Source: Xanthomonas sp. CFBP 8443
GTDB taxonomy: Bacteria; Pseudomonadota; Gammaproteobacteria; Xanthomonadales; Xanthomonadaceae
DNA length: 64,000 bases
Reading direction: 5' to 3'
Assembly: GCF_025666195.1 (NCBI RefSeq)
Contig: NZ_CP102592.1
Span: 3,968,001-4,032,000, forward strand
Position 1 is the stretch's first letter; each line of letters starts with the position of its first letter. The translations under genes and the position numbers were made by a program. Positions 29,197 through 35,826 of this stretch are shown one piece after another. The notes below the pieces were generated by a model. It did not search any database, had not been told where the DNA came from, and saw nothing but the letters and a program-made list of their open reading frames with translations.

Positions 29197-29934
29197 ATGG
29201 CGAAAGCTCCTCCACGGCCGCCTGTCCCGGGCCCGGCGTTCATTCGCCTCCTCGCACGTCTCAGCGACGCCGACATGGCGCCGTCCAGCCCCGCACTGGC
29301 CGATCGCCTCGGCCAATGGATCGACTGGACGCGTGCCGTCGCCGTGTCCAGGGCGCTGGACGGCAAGCTGCCTGCCATCGACGACGACGCGCCCTTCGAG
29401 AGCACCGACGAGCACGAATGCGCGCGGGTGCGCGGCGCGCTGGAGGAGGCCATCTGCGCCGATCCGGCCACGGGCGCCGGCAAAGCTCGGGGCGCCGGAC
29501 ATGGCCATGGCGCCGACGCGACCGCGCCGATCGACTATGCGCCGTTCCGCGAGCGCTACCTGTCGCTGCAGCGGGCGATGCTGACCGCCACCGGCCGCCT
29601 GCGCGGCCAGCTGCGCGACACGCTGGCGCGGTCCTCGGCCGACATGGCGCGGCTGGCGGAGGTGGACGCGGTCATGGAGTCGACCCTGAGCCCGCGCGAG
29701 CAGACCCTGCTGGCCGCGGTCCCGACGCTGCTGGGACACCATTTCGAACGCCTGCGCGAGGCCGGGCACCCGCCGCCGGCCGACGCGCAGCCGCCGGACA
29801 CCGCCTCCCAGGCCGCGCGCGCCGGCGCCTGGCTGGACGTGTTCCGCCAGGACATGCGCAGCGTGCTGCGCGCCGAGCTGGACGTCCGCTTCCATCCCAT
29901 CGAAGGGCTGCTCGCAGCGCTTCGCACCCGCTGA
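29197..29934 (+). CDS. DUF3348-family protein, first gene of the DUF802 motor-like cassette
   Basis: A 245-residue cytoplasmic protein without signal peptide or membrane segment. 'AFIRLLARLSDADMAPSSPALADRLGQWIDWTRAVAVSRAL' and 'DYAPFRERYLSLQRAMLTATGRLRGQLRDTL' are the conserved helical parts of DUF3348. The C-terminal 'AGAWLDVFRQDMRSVLRAELDVRFHPIEGLLAAL' is another helix pair. A His/Gly linker separates halves. ATG 29197 is used rather than TTG 29176, which overlaps the -10 candidate. It is 10 bp upstream of the MotA-like gene. DUF3348 and DUF2894 occur beside DUF802 genes in Xanthomonas/Burkholderia; function is unknown. Confidence 0.8.
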   Translation: MAKAPPRPPVPGPAFIRLLARLSDADMAPSSPALADRLGQWIDWTRAVAVSRALDGKLPAIDDDAPFESTDEHECARVRGALEEAICADPATGAGKARGAGHGHGADATAPIDYAPFRERYLSLQRAMLTATGRLRGQLRDTLARSSADMARLAEVDAVMESTLSPREQTLLAAVPTLLGHHFERLREAGHPPPADAQPPDTASQAARAGAWLDVFRQDMRSVLRAELDVRFHPIEGLLAALRTR

Positions 29935-29944
29935 CCGAGACGAC

Positions 29945-32281
29945 ATGTTCAAGACCATCTTCCATTCCATCGTCTTCCTTGCCGGCCTCGCCGCCGTGTG
30001 CTGGATCGGCGTGGGCTACCTCGGCTCCAACCCGCTGGGCGCCAGCTTCGCGCTGCTGATCGGCGCGTGCTACGTGGCCGGCGCGCTGGAGCTGTACCGC
30101 TACCGGCAAGCAACCGCCAGCCTCGCCCATGCCGTGACCGAAGCCAGTGCGGCGCAGGCCGACCTGGGCGGCTGGCTCGCGCGCCTGGATCCGAGCCTGC
30201 GCAACGCGGTGCGCCTGCGCATCGAGGGCGAGCGCGTTGCCTTGCCAGCACCGGGGCTGACCCCGTACCTGGTCGGCCTGCTGGTCCTGCTGGGCATGCT
30301 GGGTACCTTCCTGGGCATGATGGCGACGCTGCGCGGCACCGGCCTGGCGCTGGAAAGCGCGACCGACCTGCAGGCCATCCGCGACTCGCTGGCCGCGCCG
30401 GTCAAGGGCCTGGGCTTCGCGTTCGGCACCTCGATCGCCGGCGTGGCCAGTTCGGCGATGCTCGGCCTGCTCGCCGCGCTGTGCCGGCGCGAGCGCTCGC
30501 AGGCGGTGCAAGCGCTCGACCTGCAGATCGCGACCACCCTGCACACCCATTCGCAAGCGTTCCAGCGCAGCGAAGCGTTCAAGCTGCTGCAACGGCAGAC
30601 CGAGCTGATGCCGGCGCTGATCGACCGGCTGCAGGCGATGGCGGCGGGCATCGAGCAACAGGGCGCCGCCAGCGGCGACCGGCTGGCGAGCCATCAGGAC
30701 GCCTTCCACGCCCGGACCGAGGCCGCCTACACGCGCCTGGCCGGCGCGGTGGAGCAGTCGCTGCAGGCCGGGGTCGCCGAAAACGCGCGCGCGCTCGGCG
30801 CCGCGCTGCAGCCGGTGGTGCAGGCCACGCTGGCCGGCCTGGCGCGCGAAACCGCCACGCTGCACGAGCGCGTCGAACACGCCGTGCAGCGGCAGCTGGA
30901 CGGCCTGACGTCCGGCTTCGAAACCGCCGCTGCGCGCGCTGCGCAGACCTGGGACGCCGCACTGGCGGGGCAACGCGGCACCAACGAGGCGCTGGTCCAG
31001 GATCTGCGCAGCGCGCTGGAGGGTGCCGGCGACAGCTTCGCGACGCGCTCGGCCGGGCTGCTGGATGCCGTGTCGGCGCGCCTGGACGCGACCGCGGACG
31101 GCGCCAAACAGGCATGGCACGAGGCGCTGTCGCGCCAGGAAGACCTCAACGACCGCCTGGCGGCGCGCAATGCGCAAGCGCTGGACGCGATCGCGGTGCG
31201 CCTGGACGCCACCGCCGACGGCGCGAAGCAGGCCTGGAGCGACGCGCTGTCGCGCCAGGAGGAGATCAACGCGCAATTGGCGGCGCGCAACGCACAGGCG
31301 CTGGACGCGATCTCGGCGCGCCTGGACGCCACCGCGGACGCCGCCAAGCAAGCCTGGAACGATGCCCTGTCGCGCCAGGAGCAGGTCAACACGGCTCTGG
31401 CCGAGCGCAACGCGCAGGCGCTGAGCGAAGCCGCCACGACGCTGGAAGAACGCGCGGCGGCGCTGGTCGCGGTCATGCAGCAAGCGCATGCGCAGCTGCA
31501 GGACGCGCTGCAGGCACGCGACCAGGCGCGCCTGGCCGCGTGGGCGGACACGTTCGCCACCATGGTCGCCGGCTTGAATGCGGAGTGGGAACGCAACAGC
31601 GCGCACAGCGCGCAGCGCCAGCAGGAGATCTGCGACACGCTCGAACGCACCGCAGCCGCGATCGCGGCGCAGACCCAGGCGCATGCCAGCGAGACCATCG
31701 CCGAGATCTCGCGCCTGGTGCAGACCGCCTCCGAAGCGCCGAAGGCCGCCGCCGACGTCGTCGCCGAGCTGCGCCAGAAGCTCTCCGAGAGCATGGTCCG
31801 CGATACCGCCATGCTGGAAGAGCGCAGCCGCCTGCTGGACACGCTGCACACGCTGCTCGATGCGGTGAACCACGCGTCCACCGAGCAACGCACGGCGGTG
31901 GACGCGCTGGTCACCACCTCGGCGGATCTGCTCGACCGCGTCGGCACCCGCTTCACCGACCACATCGAGGCCGAGACCGGCAAGCTCGAATCGGTCGCCG
32001 CGCAGGTCGCGGTCGGCGCCACCGAAGTGGCGAGCCTGGGCGATGCGTTCGGTGGCGCGGTGGAGGCGTTCGGCCAGTCGAACGCGGCGCTGCTGGAGCG
32101 CCTGCAGGGCATCGAACAGGCGCTGGACAAGTCGCTGGCGCGCAGCGACGAGCAGTTGGCCTACTACGTGGCCCAGGCGCGTGAAGTGATCGACCTGAGC
32201 ATGCTGTCGCAGAAGCAGATCATCGAGGAACTGCGCCAGCTGCCCGGCCAGCATGGCCACGGCGGGGCCGAAGCGGCATGA
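29945..32281 (+). CDS. DUF802 protein: MotA/ExbB-like membrane domain with a ~600-residue coiled-coil tail
   Basis: A 778-residue protein. Four hydrophobic helices lie at about 5-26, 33-50, 106-129 and 156-179. TM3-TM4 carry the MotA/TolQ/ExbB pattern: 'YLVGLLVLLGMLGTFLGMMATL', a cytoplasmic-facing loop, then 'LGFAFGTSIAGVASSAMLG'. Residues 180-778 form an Ala/Gln/Glu/Arg-rich, Pro-poor helical tail, most likely a very long coiled coil. It includes three 40-residue tandem repeats (379-498). DUF802 is, as I recall, defined on such repeats. The stop overlaps the next gene by 4 nt. With the Asp-bearing MotB-like partner, it looks like the stator ring of an ion-driven machine; this is inference. 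Confidence 0.85.
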   Translation: MFKTIFHSIVFLAGLAAVCWIGVGYLGSNPLGASFALLIGACYVAGALELYRYRQATASLAHAVTEASAAQADLGGWLARLDPSLRNAVRLRIEGERVALPAPGLTPYLVGLLVLLGMLGTFLGMMATLRGTGLALESATDLQAIRDSLAAPVKGLGFAFGTSIAGVASSAMLGLLAALCRRERSQAVQALDLQIATTLHTHSQAFQRSEAFKLLQRQTELMPALIDRLQAMAAGIEQQGAASGDRLASHQDAFHARTEAAYTRLAGAVEQSLQAGVAENARALGAALQPVVQATLAGLARETATLHERVEHAVQRQLDGLTSGFETAAARAAQTWDAALAGQRGTNEALVQDLRSALEGAGDSFATRSAGLLDAVSARLDATADGAKQAWHEALSRQEDLNDRLAARNAQALDAIAVRLDATADGAKQAWSDALSRQEEINAQLAARNAQALDAISARLDATADAAKQAWNDALSRQEQVNTALAERNAQALSEAATTLEERAAALVAVMQQAHAQLQDALQARDQARLAAWADTFATMVAGLNAEWERNSAHSAQRQQEICDTLERTAAAIAAQTQAHASETIAEISRLVQTASEAPKAAADVVAELRQKLSESMVRDTAMLEERSRLLDTLHTLLDAVNHASTEQRTAVDALVTTSADLLDRVGTRFTDHIEAETGKLESVAAQVAVGATEVASLGDAFGGAVEAFGQSNAALLERLQGIEQALDKSLARSDEQLAYYVAQAREVIDLSMLSQKQIIEELRQLPGQHGHGGAEAA
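31079..31438 (+). repeat. Three in-frame 120-bp tandem repeats in the coiled-coil tail
   Basis: Units start at 31079, 31199 and 31319. Each encodes a 40-residue unit of the form RLDATADGAKQAW..ALSRQE..N..LAARNAQALDAI. The DNA copies are highly similar over the first 60 bp; the third degenerates at its end. The exact 120-bp period keeps frame and helical phase, consistent with length variation of the tail by unequal recombination. Confidence 0.88.
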
Positions 32282-32928
32282 GCGACGGGCTGGAACTCGA
32301 CACCGAGGCCGGCACCCCGATCTGGGCGGTGTTCGGCGACCTGATGTCGGTGCTGCTGGGCGCGTTCGTGCTGATCCTGATCGGCGTGATCGGCGTGCAA
32401 CTGCAGCTGTCGAACAAGCTCGACGAGGAAGTCAGGCAGCGCCAGGCCGAGGCGCGGCAGCGCAAGACCCTGGAACAGGCGCTGGCCGCGCCGCTCGCGG
32501 CAGGCCGAGTGACGTTGGTCGACGGCCGCATCGGCATCCGCGGCAGCGTGCTGTTCGCGCTCAATTCCGACCAGTTGCAGCCCGAGGGACGCGAGGTGCT
32601 GAAGAGCCTGGCCGCGCCATTGGCCGGCTACCTGAAGGCGCGCGGCGAGATCCTGATGGTGAGCGGCTTCACCGACGACCGCCAGGTCCGCGACAGCAAC
32701 CGCCAGTTCGCCGACAACTGGGAACTGTCGGCGCAGCGCGCGCTGACCGTGACCCGCGCGCTGATCGACGAAGGCGTGCCGGCCGACGCGGTGTTCGCCG
32801 CCGCGTTCGGCGCGCAGCAACCGGTGAGCCCGAACACCGACGAGGCCGGACGCGCCAGCAACCGGCGCGTGGAAATGGCGCCGCTGCCCAAGCTGTCCAA
32901 GTCCGCCCCGATCCCGCATGCGCGCTGA
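32278..32928 (+). CDS. MotB/TolR-like membrane protein with OmpA peptidoglycan-binding domain
   Basis: A 216-residue protein with a single N-terminal transmembrane helix, 'PIWAVFGDLMSVLLGAFVLILIGVIGVQLQ' (14-43). Asp21 sits at its cytoplasmic edge, the position of the proton-binding Asp of MotB/TolR/ExbD. A coiled linker (about 45-75) leads to an OmpA-like domain: 'SVLFALNSDQLQPEGREVLKSLA', 'GFTDDRQ', 'ELSAQRALTVTRALIDEG', 'EAGRASNRRVEM'. The peptidoglycan-binding Asp and Arg are present. It overlaps the DUF802 gene by 4 nt and DUF2894 by 11 nt. Likely the rotor/stator plug that anchors the DUF802 ring to the cell wall. Confidence 0.88.
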   Translation: MSDGLELDTEAGTPIWAVFGDLMSVLLGAFVLILIGVIGVQLQLSNKLDEEVRQRQAEARQRKTLEQALAAPLAAGRVTLVDGRIGIRGSVLFALNSDQLQPEGREVLKSLAAPLAGYLKARGEILMVSGFTDDRQVRDSNRQFADNWELSAQRALTVTRALIDEGVPADAVFAAAFGAQQPVSPNTDEAGRASNRRVEMAPLPKLSKSAPIPHAR

Positions 32929-33598
32929 CGCAACGACGGCGAGCGAACGGATCGCGGCGTGGCGCGCGCAGCATGGCGGGCGCCTGGACCCGCTGCGCGT
33001 GCGCTTCATCGAAGCGCTGGCGCGGCGCGCCGATGCCCACCAGGGCGAAGCGCGGCGCCTGCTCGACCAGAAGCTGTCCGCGCTGCTCGACGCCTATGCC
33101 GACGACGTGGCCAGGATGCCGGCCGCGGCGGGCGATGCCGATGGCAGTGCCGGTGTCCATGCCGACGTCCATGCCACTGCCAGTGCCGAGACCGCGCCCA
33201 CCGCCACGCGCGGCCCGCTCGGCGAACTGCTGGATATCTTCGCTAGCGACGCAACGCACGATCCCGCCGGCGCCGCGGCACCGGCGTTCGCGTCGTTGCC
33301 CGCACTCGACGACGCGCGCCGGCTGTGGACCGAATTGCGCAGCCGCAGCCAGCTGCGGCAATCGCTGCAACAGGCGCCGTCCGATGCCGGCCCGCTGAAT
33401 TCCGGCGTGCTGGTGCACCGCTCGCTGGCGCTGATGCGCACGCTGTCGCCGGGCTATCTGCAGCACTTCCTGGCCTACGTCGATGCGCTGTCGTGGCTGC
33501 AGCAACTGCGCGACGGCGGCGCGCTGGCGGCACAGCCCACCTCCAGCGCCGCGATCGGCAAGAAGCCGACCCGCGCCAAGCCGCGCAAGCGCAGCTGA
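32918..33598 (+). CDS. DUF2894-family protein, last gene of the DUF802 cassette
   Basis: A 226-residue cytoplasmic protein with no signal peptide or membrane helix. 'ERIAAWRAQHGGRLDPLRVRFIEALARRADAHQGEARRLLDQKLSALLDAY' forms an N-terminal helical region. The conserved C-terminal part 'RRLWTELRSRSQLRQSLQQAPSDAGPLNSGVLVHRSLALMRTLSPGYLQHFLAYVDALSWLQQL' is the DUF2894 core. A low-complexity Ala/His/Asp linker and a basic Lys/Arg tail (KKPTRAKPRKRS) flank it. The start overlaps the OmpA-like gene by 11 nt, so it is cotranslated. The tail could bind nucleic acid or acidic partners. Function unknown. Confidence 0.82.
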   Translation: MRADATTASERIAAWRAQHGGRLDPLRVRFIEALARRADAHQGEARRLLDQKLSALLDAYADDVARMPAAAGDADGSAGVHADVHATASAETAPTATRGPLGELLDIFASDATHDPAGAAAPAFASLPALDDARRLWTELRSRSQLRQSLQQAPSDAGPLNSGVLVHRSLALMRTLSPGYLQHFLAYVDALSWLQQLRDGGALAAQPTSSAAIGKKPTRAKPRKRS

Positions 33599-33825: not shown

Positions 33826-35826
33826 TTACAACGCCTTCGCCGCCGCGACCACGTGCTCGGCGGTGATCTCGAAGTACGTGTACAACTCGTCGGCCGGGGC
33901 CGAGGCGCCGAACGTGTCGATGCCGACCACCGCACCGTCCAGGCCCACGTACTTGCGCCAGAAGCCGGTGACGCCGGCCTCCACCGCCACGCGCTTGCGC
34001 ACCGCGTTCGGCAGCACCGATTCGCGATAGGCCGCGTCCTGGCGATCGAACACGTCGGTCGAGGGCATCGACACCACGCGCGTCTTCAGGCCCGCGGCAT
34101 CCAGCGTCTTCTTCGCTTCCACGGCCAGGCCGACTTCCGAACCGGTGCCGATCAGGATCACGTCCGGCGCGCCGCCCTCGGCATCGGCCAGCACGTAGCC
34201 GCCGCGCTCGACCTGCTTGATCTGCGCCTCGCTGCGCACCTGGAACGGCAGGTTCTGGCGGCTGAACACCAGGCAGCTGGGGCCGTCCTGGCGGGTGATC
34301 GCGGCCTTCCAGCTCACCGCCGACTCGACCGTGTCGCACGGGCGCCACACGTCGTTGTTGGGGATGTAGCGCAGCGAGGCCAGGTGTTCCACCGGCTGAT
34401 GGGTCGGGCCGTCCTCGCCCAGGCCGATCGAATCGTGGGTGTAGACGTGGATCGCGTGCGCCGGGTTCAGCGCGCTCATGCGCACGCCGTTGCGCGCGTA
34501 GTCGCTGAACACCAGGAAGGTGGCGTCGAACGGAATGAAGCCGCCATGCAGCGCAAGACCATTCGCGATCGCGGTCATGCCGAACTCGCGCACGCCGTAG
34601 TACACGTAGTTGGCGTTCGGGTCGTCAGTGGCGACCGACTTGCTGGCCTTCCACAGGGTCAGGTTGGAATGCGCCAGGTCGGCCGAGCCGCCGACCAGTT
34701 CCGGCAGCAGCGGCGCGAACGCTTCGATCGCCATCTGCGAGGCCTTGCGCGAGGCGATGGTCTGCGCTTCCGCGGCCTGCTTGGCGATGTAGGCATCGGC
34801 CTGGGCGATGAAGTCCTCCGGCAGCTCGCCGTGCGAGCGGCGGGTCAGCTCGGCGGCCTCGGCCGGGAACTGCTTGGCGTACTTGTCGAACGCCTGCTCC
34901 CACTCGGCCTGGCGCAGCGTGCCGGCGCCACCGGCGCGCCAGCCGTCGTAGATCTCCTGCGGAATCTCGAACGGGCCGTACGGCCAACCCAGCGCCTTGC
35001 GCGCGCCTTCCAGTTCGTCCTTGCCCAGCGGCGCGCCGTGCGAGGATTCCTTGCCGGCCTTGCTCGGCGCACCGAAGCCGATGGTGGTGCGGCAGCAGAT
35101 CAGGGTCGGCTTGTCGCTCTCGCCGATCGCGGCCTCGATCGCCGCCTTGATCGCATCGGCGTCCTGCCCGTCGACATCGCGCAGCACGTGCCAGCCATAG
35201 GCCTCGAAGCGCGCCGGGGTGTTGTCGCTGAACCAGCCGGCGGTGTTGCCGTCGATGGAGATATGGTTGTTGTCCCAGAACGCGACCAGCTTGCCCAGGC
35301 CCCAGGTGCCGGCAAGCGAGGCGGCTTCGTGCGAGATGCCTTCCATCATGCAGCCGTCGCCCATGAACACCCAGGTGCGGTGGTCGACGATCTGGTGCTC
35401 GGGGCGGTTATAGCGCTGCGCCAGCAGCTTCTCGGCCAGCGCGAAACCGACCGCGTTGGCGAAGCCCTGGCCGAGCGGACCCGTGGTGGTTTCCACGCCG
35501 GGGGTCTCGCTGCGCTCGGGGTGGCCGGCGGTCTTGCTGTGCAGCTGGCGGAAGCGCTTGAGCTGGTCCAGCGGCAGGTCGTAGCCGGACAGATGCAGCA
35601 GCGCGTACTGCAGCATCGAACCGTGGCCGTTGGAGAGCACGAAGCGGTCGCGGTTGAACCACTTCGGATTGTTCGGATTGTGGCTGAGGAAGTCGTTCCA
35701 CAGCACTTCGGCGATGTCGGCCATGCCCATCGGCATGCCGGGGTGGCCGGACTTGGCGGCCTCGACCGCATCGGCGGCGAGGAAGCGGATCGCGTTGGCG
35801 AGCTGGCGGCGGGTAGGCGTCGTCAT
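33826..35826 (-). CDS. tkt: Transketolase
   Basis: A 666-residue thiamine-diphosphate enzyme of the pentose phosphate pathway, moving two-carbon ketol units between sugar phosphates. The TPP-binding stretch is '[40 protein letters not shown]' (GDG...N). N-terminal '[36 protein letters not shown]' has the active-site His of SGHPG. The central domain has '[27 protein letters not shown]' and the substrate-binding RQNLPF. Length is canonical. It is monocistronic, with its own terminator. Downstream (left) lies a REP hairpin, and upstream (right) a composite repeat region. Confidence 0.97.

Follow-up and report, generated by a model that had tools for sequence, protein, structure and literature searches.

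A probable Zorya type III anti-phage cassette of Xanthomonas with a ZorA rod of variable length

Zorya type III was defined and named in 2021 in the PADLOC paper, where 6,401 cases were counted (PMC8565338). The available sections of that paper describe inducible expression in E. coli BL21-AI of an operon from Stenotrophomonas nitritireducens DSM 12575, which lowered plaquing of at least one phage and gave protection in liquid culture at an MOI below 0.1 (PMC8565338). For Zorya types I and II, the accessible part of a 2025 paper reports that defence depends on the ZorA tail, or rod, and on the peptidoglycan-binding domain of ZorB, and that ion flow through the motor is important (PMC11890865).

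Gene content and assignment of the cassette

The DNA analyzed, referred to as the window, was a stretch of 64,000 nucleotides from Xanthomonas sp. CFBP 8443 (NZ_CP102592.1, positions 3,968,001 to 4,032,000). A cassette of four genes was located at 29197-33598 with intergenic spacings of 10, -4 and -11 nt and contained the following features.

29197-29934, + strand: DUF3348 gene, 245 aa; PADLOC-DB label ZorG3; PF11828 1.3e-91, PADLOC ZorG3 1.7e-92
29945-32281, + strand: ZorA type III (DUF802) gene, 778 aa; PADLOC ZorA3 E=0, 1161.7 bits; motor domain at residues ~1-230, then the rod, then a conserved tip at ~580-765
31074-31423, + strand: 120-bp tandem repeat, 2.9 copies, TRF score 474; equals 40-residue units of the ZorA rod
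32278-32928, + strand: ZorB type III gene, 216 aa; one transmembrane helix with Asp21, then an OmpA peptidoglycan-binding domain; PADLOC ZorB3 1.9e-114, NF006547 1.6e-113, OmpA 6.9e-19
32918-33598, + strand: DUF2894 gene, 226 aa; PADLOC-DB label ZorF3; PF11445 1.8e-58, PADLOC ZorF3 6.2e-71

Every gene of the cassette was matched by the PADLOC model of the corresponding Zorya type III component. The matches from the scan of the four genes were limited to ZorA, ZorB and the type III partners, and no ZorC, ZorD or ZorE gene of Zorya types I and II was detected in the operon. The genes that define type III, namely ZorA3 and ZorB3 with DUF3348 and DUF2894 beside them, were all present, and the Pfam family DUF802 matched ZorA in four stretches. 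On these profile matches, the cassette is very probably a complete Zorya type III anti-phage system. The original prediction had compared it to the Zorya ZorAB pair, which was right, and had called it uncharacterised, which was wrong, as this is a named and already known system and the available sections of the 2021 paper report phage protection by a relative (PMC8565338). Envelope maintenance, gliding and defence had all been left open as roles; defence is the one favoured by that published work.

The 2021 paper (PMC8565338) and the 2025 paper, in their accessible parts, name DUF3348 ZorF and DUF2894 ZorG, whereas the labels are swapped in PADLOC-DB v2 (ZorG3 and ZorF3, respectively), and the DUF names are therefore used here. 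DUF3348, DUF802 or DUF2894 were mentioned in 3 papers of the literature searched. The type III ZorB is named by NCBIfam merely as PRK09040 'hypothetical protein' (NF006547).

Of 141 confirmed relatives, the 80 most similar to the window served as the named loci for comparison, which are for that reason not an even sample. All four genes occurred together in the same order and on the same strand in 78 of these 80 loci, and the two incomplete loci (L068 and L087) both terminated at or near a contig end. With start codons chosen by rule, the first gap was 10 nt in 65 of the 78 complete loci, the second was -4 nt in 75, and the exact set of 10, -4 and -11 nt was found in 24. The four-gene arrangement is far beyond chance, and the tight gene order that had been noted in the window was confirmed and extended by this co-occurrence. 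A chance arrangement or mis-called genes were ruled out by the constant order.

The contig with the phage-tested S. nitritireducens operon (NZ_LDJG01000021.1) was among the loci compared (L086). It held the same four families as the window in the same order, strand and spacing (10, -4, -11 nt), with identities of 59% for DUF3348, 59% for ZorA, 70% for ZorB and 41% for DUF2894 over aligned columns, a range of 41-70%. ZorA differed between the two, having 778 residues with 40-residue units in the window and 798 residues with a 102-residue unit in S. nitritireducens. The nearest named locus, from X. bonasiae (L042), was 91% identical to the window cassette over 899 joined columns. Phage protection by the window cassette would follow by analogy with this work of others on the orthologous operon, as described in the available sections (PMC8565338).

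Distribution, descent and genomic surroundings

The genome surveys counted DUF3348 alone, the presence of all four genes being checked in the 80 named loci. All 20 genomes searched in the window's genus carried DUF3348, as did 35 of 35 in a second genus and 51 of 60 in a third; each positive genome gave a single match, which in one case (G669) was split in two pieces. Of 198 genomes sampled from the family, 70 carried it (18 of 54 genera), as did 20 of 398 sampled from the phylum, with 19 of the latter matches above the cut-off. The type II ZorA model was above its cut-off in none of the 20 genomes of the genus. The spoT gene was retrieved for 15 genomes of the genus; it shared a contig with the cassette in 13 of them and lay on a different one in two, and the distance between cassette and spoT was 28-39 kb in 12 of the 13 and 111 kb in the other (G005). 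A search of 50,697 phage records gave no match, and none of 76 pattern matches in viral contigs was confirmed as a relative. Among 72,556 plasmid records 27 matches were obtained in seven genera, Caballeronia and Paraburkholderia being the most frequent, and the smallest matching record was 366 kb. The cassette behaves like core genome, more than like a mobile defence system, and seems to belong to the standard chromosomal genes of its genus and not to be a mobile add-on. Fixed chromosomal presence in whole genera is uncommon among defence systems in general. A literature search of titles and abstract openings, in which subscription papers were thinly covered, showed no earlier report of core-genome status for Zorya III among the matches listed.

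Cassette distances were correlated with SpoT distances across 30 genomes (Pearson 0.66, 0 of 2000 permutations as high) and across 15 genomes of the genus (Pearson 0.62, 1 of 2000 as high), and the mean distance inside the genus was 0.234 for cassette pieces versus 0.018 for SpoT. A quick tree of the cassette, built without bootstrap, came close to grouping each genus as a clade, with 13 changes required for 12 groups where the minimum was 11. The cassette of one genome (G016, locus L019) is likely a replacement, as it fell outside a well-supported clade that held those of the other 14 genomes of the genus, two Rhodanobacter rows were placed among Stenotrophomonas, and Burkholderiales rows (Caballeronia/Burkholderia) were placed among Dyella and Rhodanobacter. 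Inside genera the cassette has therefore been passed on largely by vertical descent, with some transfer as well.

YkuD and M23 genes, identified by Pfam, adjoin the window cassette, as had been seen in the original prediction. The link drawn there to these two peptidoglycan enzymes did not hold, as both were beside the cassette in only one of the 80 loci (L042), several of which hold little upstream DNA, and a role tied to them was rejected. A transketolase gene, tkt (33826-35826), is convergent on the other strand downstream and was found there in the window and four close relatives, and a different upstream reading frame was shared by 22 Xanthomonas loci. On a Caballeronia megaplasmid a split transketolase pair (L177:10314-12230) lies beside the cassette, a likeness to the window that may be coincidence, and an IS5 family transposase gene (L177:4813-5766) lies just upstream.

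Rates of change were computed against four relatives (L042, L043, L044 and L049). The dN/dS values were 0.35-0.48 for DUF3348, 0.42-0.55 for DUF2894, 0.21-0.41 for whole ZorA, 0.03-0.23 for the ZorA tip (580-765), 0.10-0.28 for ZorB and 0.06-0.18 for tkt, and none of the genes compared with these four relatives exceeded 1. This pattern, with the partners changing fast and the tip and ZorB more slowly, is compatible with an arms race or with weaker constraint.

Several points count against reading the cassette as a Zorya type III defence system: the core-like distribution, the match of ZorA to PF01618 below its cut-off and the lack of an effector activity readable from the DUF3348 and DUF2894 models (both described in the following section), and the use in the published assay of a relative expressed inducibly in E. 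coli. The cassette could be mainly a housekeeping envelope machine, such as a sensor of wall integrity or a generator of force in the envelope, the phage protection seen in E. coli being a side effect or second job. Its presence throughout or nearly throughout three genera, its position near spoT, the absence of phage and viral relatives and the few, large plasmid records would all suit such a role. We nevertheless regard it as unlikely. DUF3348 was not found in 128 of the 198 family genomes or in 378 of the 398 phylum genomes, and the cassette is therefore not essential to this type of envelope. The partners also change fast relative to tkt (dN/dS of 0.35-0.55 versus 0.06-0.18 in the four comparisons), and phage protection by a relative is reported in the available sections of the 2021 paper (PMC8565338).

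The predicted motor and its partner proteins

Hydropathy scans gave four hydrophobic segments in ZorA (5-23, 30-48, 109-127 and 162-180), one in ZorB (22-40) and none in DUF3348 or DUF2894, in agreement with the four-helix ZorA and single-helix ZorB partner that had been proposed. When full-length window ZorA was compared with Pfam, PF01618 was absent at E<=1, and residues 1-235 gave a match at E = 0.089 with 13.0 bits, below the gathering threshold of 22.9. Across orthologs, a PF01618 match at E<=1 was obtained in 37 of 39 ZorA N-termini (39 of the 79 sequences), the best at 6.9e-4. Judged from these profiles, the MotA/ExbB similarity of ZorA put forward in the original prediction is real but weak, standing for the orthologs as a group and falling short of the cut-off in the window protein. 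At E<=0.1 a profile of the 39 N-termini retrieved a single PDB entry, the type I ZorA 8VVN from Shewanella (E 1.1e-5), which, with the PADLOC ZorA3 match, bore out the relationship to ZorA.

ZorB Asp21, which had been placed at the ion-site position, was identical in 79 of 79 aligned sequences from the window and the named loci (L042-L121). ZorA Thr121 and Thr162 were each identical in 79 of 79 as well, T121 aligning to GT and T162-S163 to TS of 8VVN, and both elements of the ZorAB ion site, the ZorB Asp and the ZorA Ser/Thr ring, were thereby found. In the OmpA domain of ZorB the residues D133, N147, L150, S151 and R154 were among those conserved in at least 98.5%. The profile matches and the invariant ion-site residues support a MotAB/ZorAB-like motor with a long cytoplasmic tail.

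The cassette has in common with the ZorAB of Zorya types I and II (8VVN, 8VVI) the motor-domain homology, the Asp in the ZorB helix, the OmpA domain and a long cytoplasmic ZorA tail; types I and II carry ZorC, ZorD or ZorE, whereas the window operon has two all-helical DUF proteins instead. With MotAB, ExbBD and TolQR it has in common the PF01618-like TM3-TM4 region and a MotB-like OmpA partner, and it is set apart from them by a ZorA tail of more than 500 residues and two further partner genes. It is highly improbable that the cassette is a motor for motility or gliding with no part in defence. ZorB does resemble MotB families (NF006541 MotD 2.9e-24 and NF006508 MotB-family 1.2e-24, both below their cut-offs), but the cassette matches ZorA3, ZorB3 and the two type III-specific partners together, and the only structure retrieved at E<=0.1 by the ZorA profile was a Zorya ZorA, not MotA.

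AlphaFold2 models of DUF3348 (mean pLDDT 79.8, pTM 0.74) and DUF2894 (mean pLDDT 73.0, pTM 0.40) were all-helical, and their structure matches were of the kind expected for common helical bundles. The two sequences matched no nuclease or helicase family in searches that included Pfam, NCBIfam and PADLOC, and no effector activity was readable from either model. From the all-helical folds and the lack of such matches it follows that the type III effector step may differ from that of ZorD or ZorE, or may rely on a recruited host protein.

We infer the following scheme for Zorya type III, including its 5:2 stoichiometry, rotation, docking site and effector step, in part by analogy with types I and II. 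Five ZorA subunits would form a ring around two ZorB helices. An infecting phage would disturb the wall, upon which the ZorB OmpA domain would grip peptidoglycan and ions would pass at ZorB Asp21 against the ZorA Thr121/Thr162 ring. ZorA would then turn or twist and the bundled cytoplasmic rod would carry the motion to the conserved tip. DUF3348 and DUF2894 would bind the tip or the rod and either serve as the effector or bring it in, replacing ZorC and ZorD or ZorE.

A rod of variable length between conserved ends

Mean identity to the window ZorA residue was 0.82-0.92 over 81-180 and 0.62-0.92 over 601-760, and was about 0.1 over 381-440, where more than half of the rows had gaps. Insertions relative to window ZorA amounted to 4154 residues over all rows, with 3998 within 341-600 and none in 601-760, and deletions amounted to 3816 residues within 341-600 with none in 601-760. 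In ZorA, the motor and the tip are both conserved, and the rod that links them varies in length. The type III rod varies in length between relatives, whereas the 2025 paper, in its accessible part, describes component size as well conserved within the families studied there (PMC11890865). Taken as a single extended helix at 1.5 A per residue, the window ZorA tail would reach about 810 A, which is an upper bound.

A base length of 698 residues was evident, with 24 of 79 rows at 695-700 and 16 at exactly 698, from Xanthomonas to Caballeronia. A period scan, from which we compiled the list of rod units, gave 40-residue units in the window, L042, L043 and L044 and also in Dyella (L069), the window repeat having 31 of 35 residues identical at period 40. 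Other ZorA rods had units of 51, 62, 84, 87 and 102 residues, plus a weak unit of 22. At least 18 changes of length class were needed on the cassette tree (79 rows, in 13 classes that we defined). Units of 40 residues had added 120 to the base of 698 in Xanthomonas as well as Dyella, and units of 62 had added about 186 in Xanthomonas as well as Luteibacter. Some total gains, such as +85, +90 and +187, were not exact multiples of one unit.

The unit lengths were compared with whole helical turns against 20,000 random sets, the best period of 3.64 residues per turn being searched over 3.40-3.80 and the same search applied to each random set. With the period free, the six strong unit lengths were near-whole turns at 3.641 residues per turn and 9 of 20,000 random sets were as good; for seven units, including the weak 22, one set was as good and none in a repeat run. 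Without the 22 and 102 units, the latter of which may equal 2 x 51, 85 sets were as good, and without 22, 102 and 87 there were 21. At a fixed period of 3.65, which was chosen after the fact, one set was as good as the six units. The fit was moderate at 11/3 (3.667), with 331 sets for six units and 96 for seven, and weak at 3.678, with 2949 and 1334, respectively. The six units showed no fit at a fixed 3.5 or 3.6 residues per turn (9282 and 5756 sets as good), and a heptad reading of the rod was rejected because 10174 sets were as good as the seven units at 3.5. The strongest hydrophobic period of the base rod was 3.678 over residues 236-470 and 3.665 over 236-698, and at this period of its own the unit lengths fit less well than at 3.64.

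Extension of the rod by tandem units close to whole helical turns is suggestive, the statistics not being decisive. The unit lengths support a rod that is a continuous helix and accepts mostly insertions that keep its register, short of proof of rotation. As a tentative reading, to which we give somewhat less than even weight, Zorya III may be a core-genome immune motor with an adjustable shaft, its motor and tip fixed and its rod lengthened repeatedly and independently by near-whole-turn units (40, 51, 62, 84, 87 and 102 residues at about 3.64 residues per turn). If this reading is true, the angular register between motor and tip would be kept while the cytoplasmic reach varies, as expected of a rod passing rotation or twist to effectors docked on the tip. 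Among the matches listed by the literature search there was no earlier report of rod-length units in ZorA, again within titles and abstract openings and with thin coverage of subscription papers.

What had been a mystery envelope motor becomes a named immune system, and Zorya III looks like phage defence fixed in the chromosomes of some genera. Type III carries no recognizable nuclease. The natural rod lengths provide ready-made variants for asking whether length or helical register matters.
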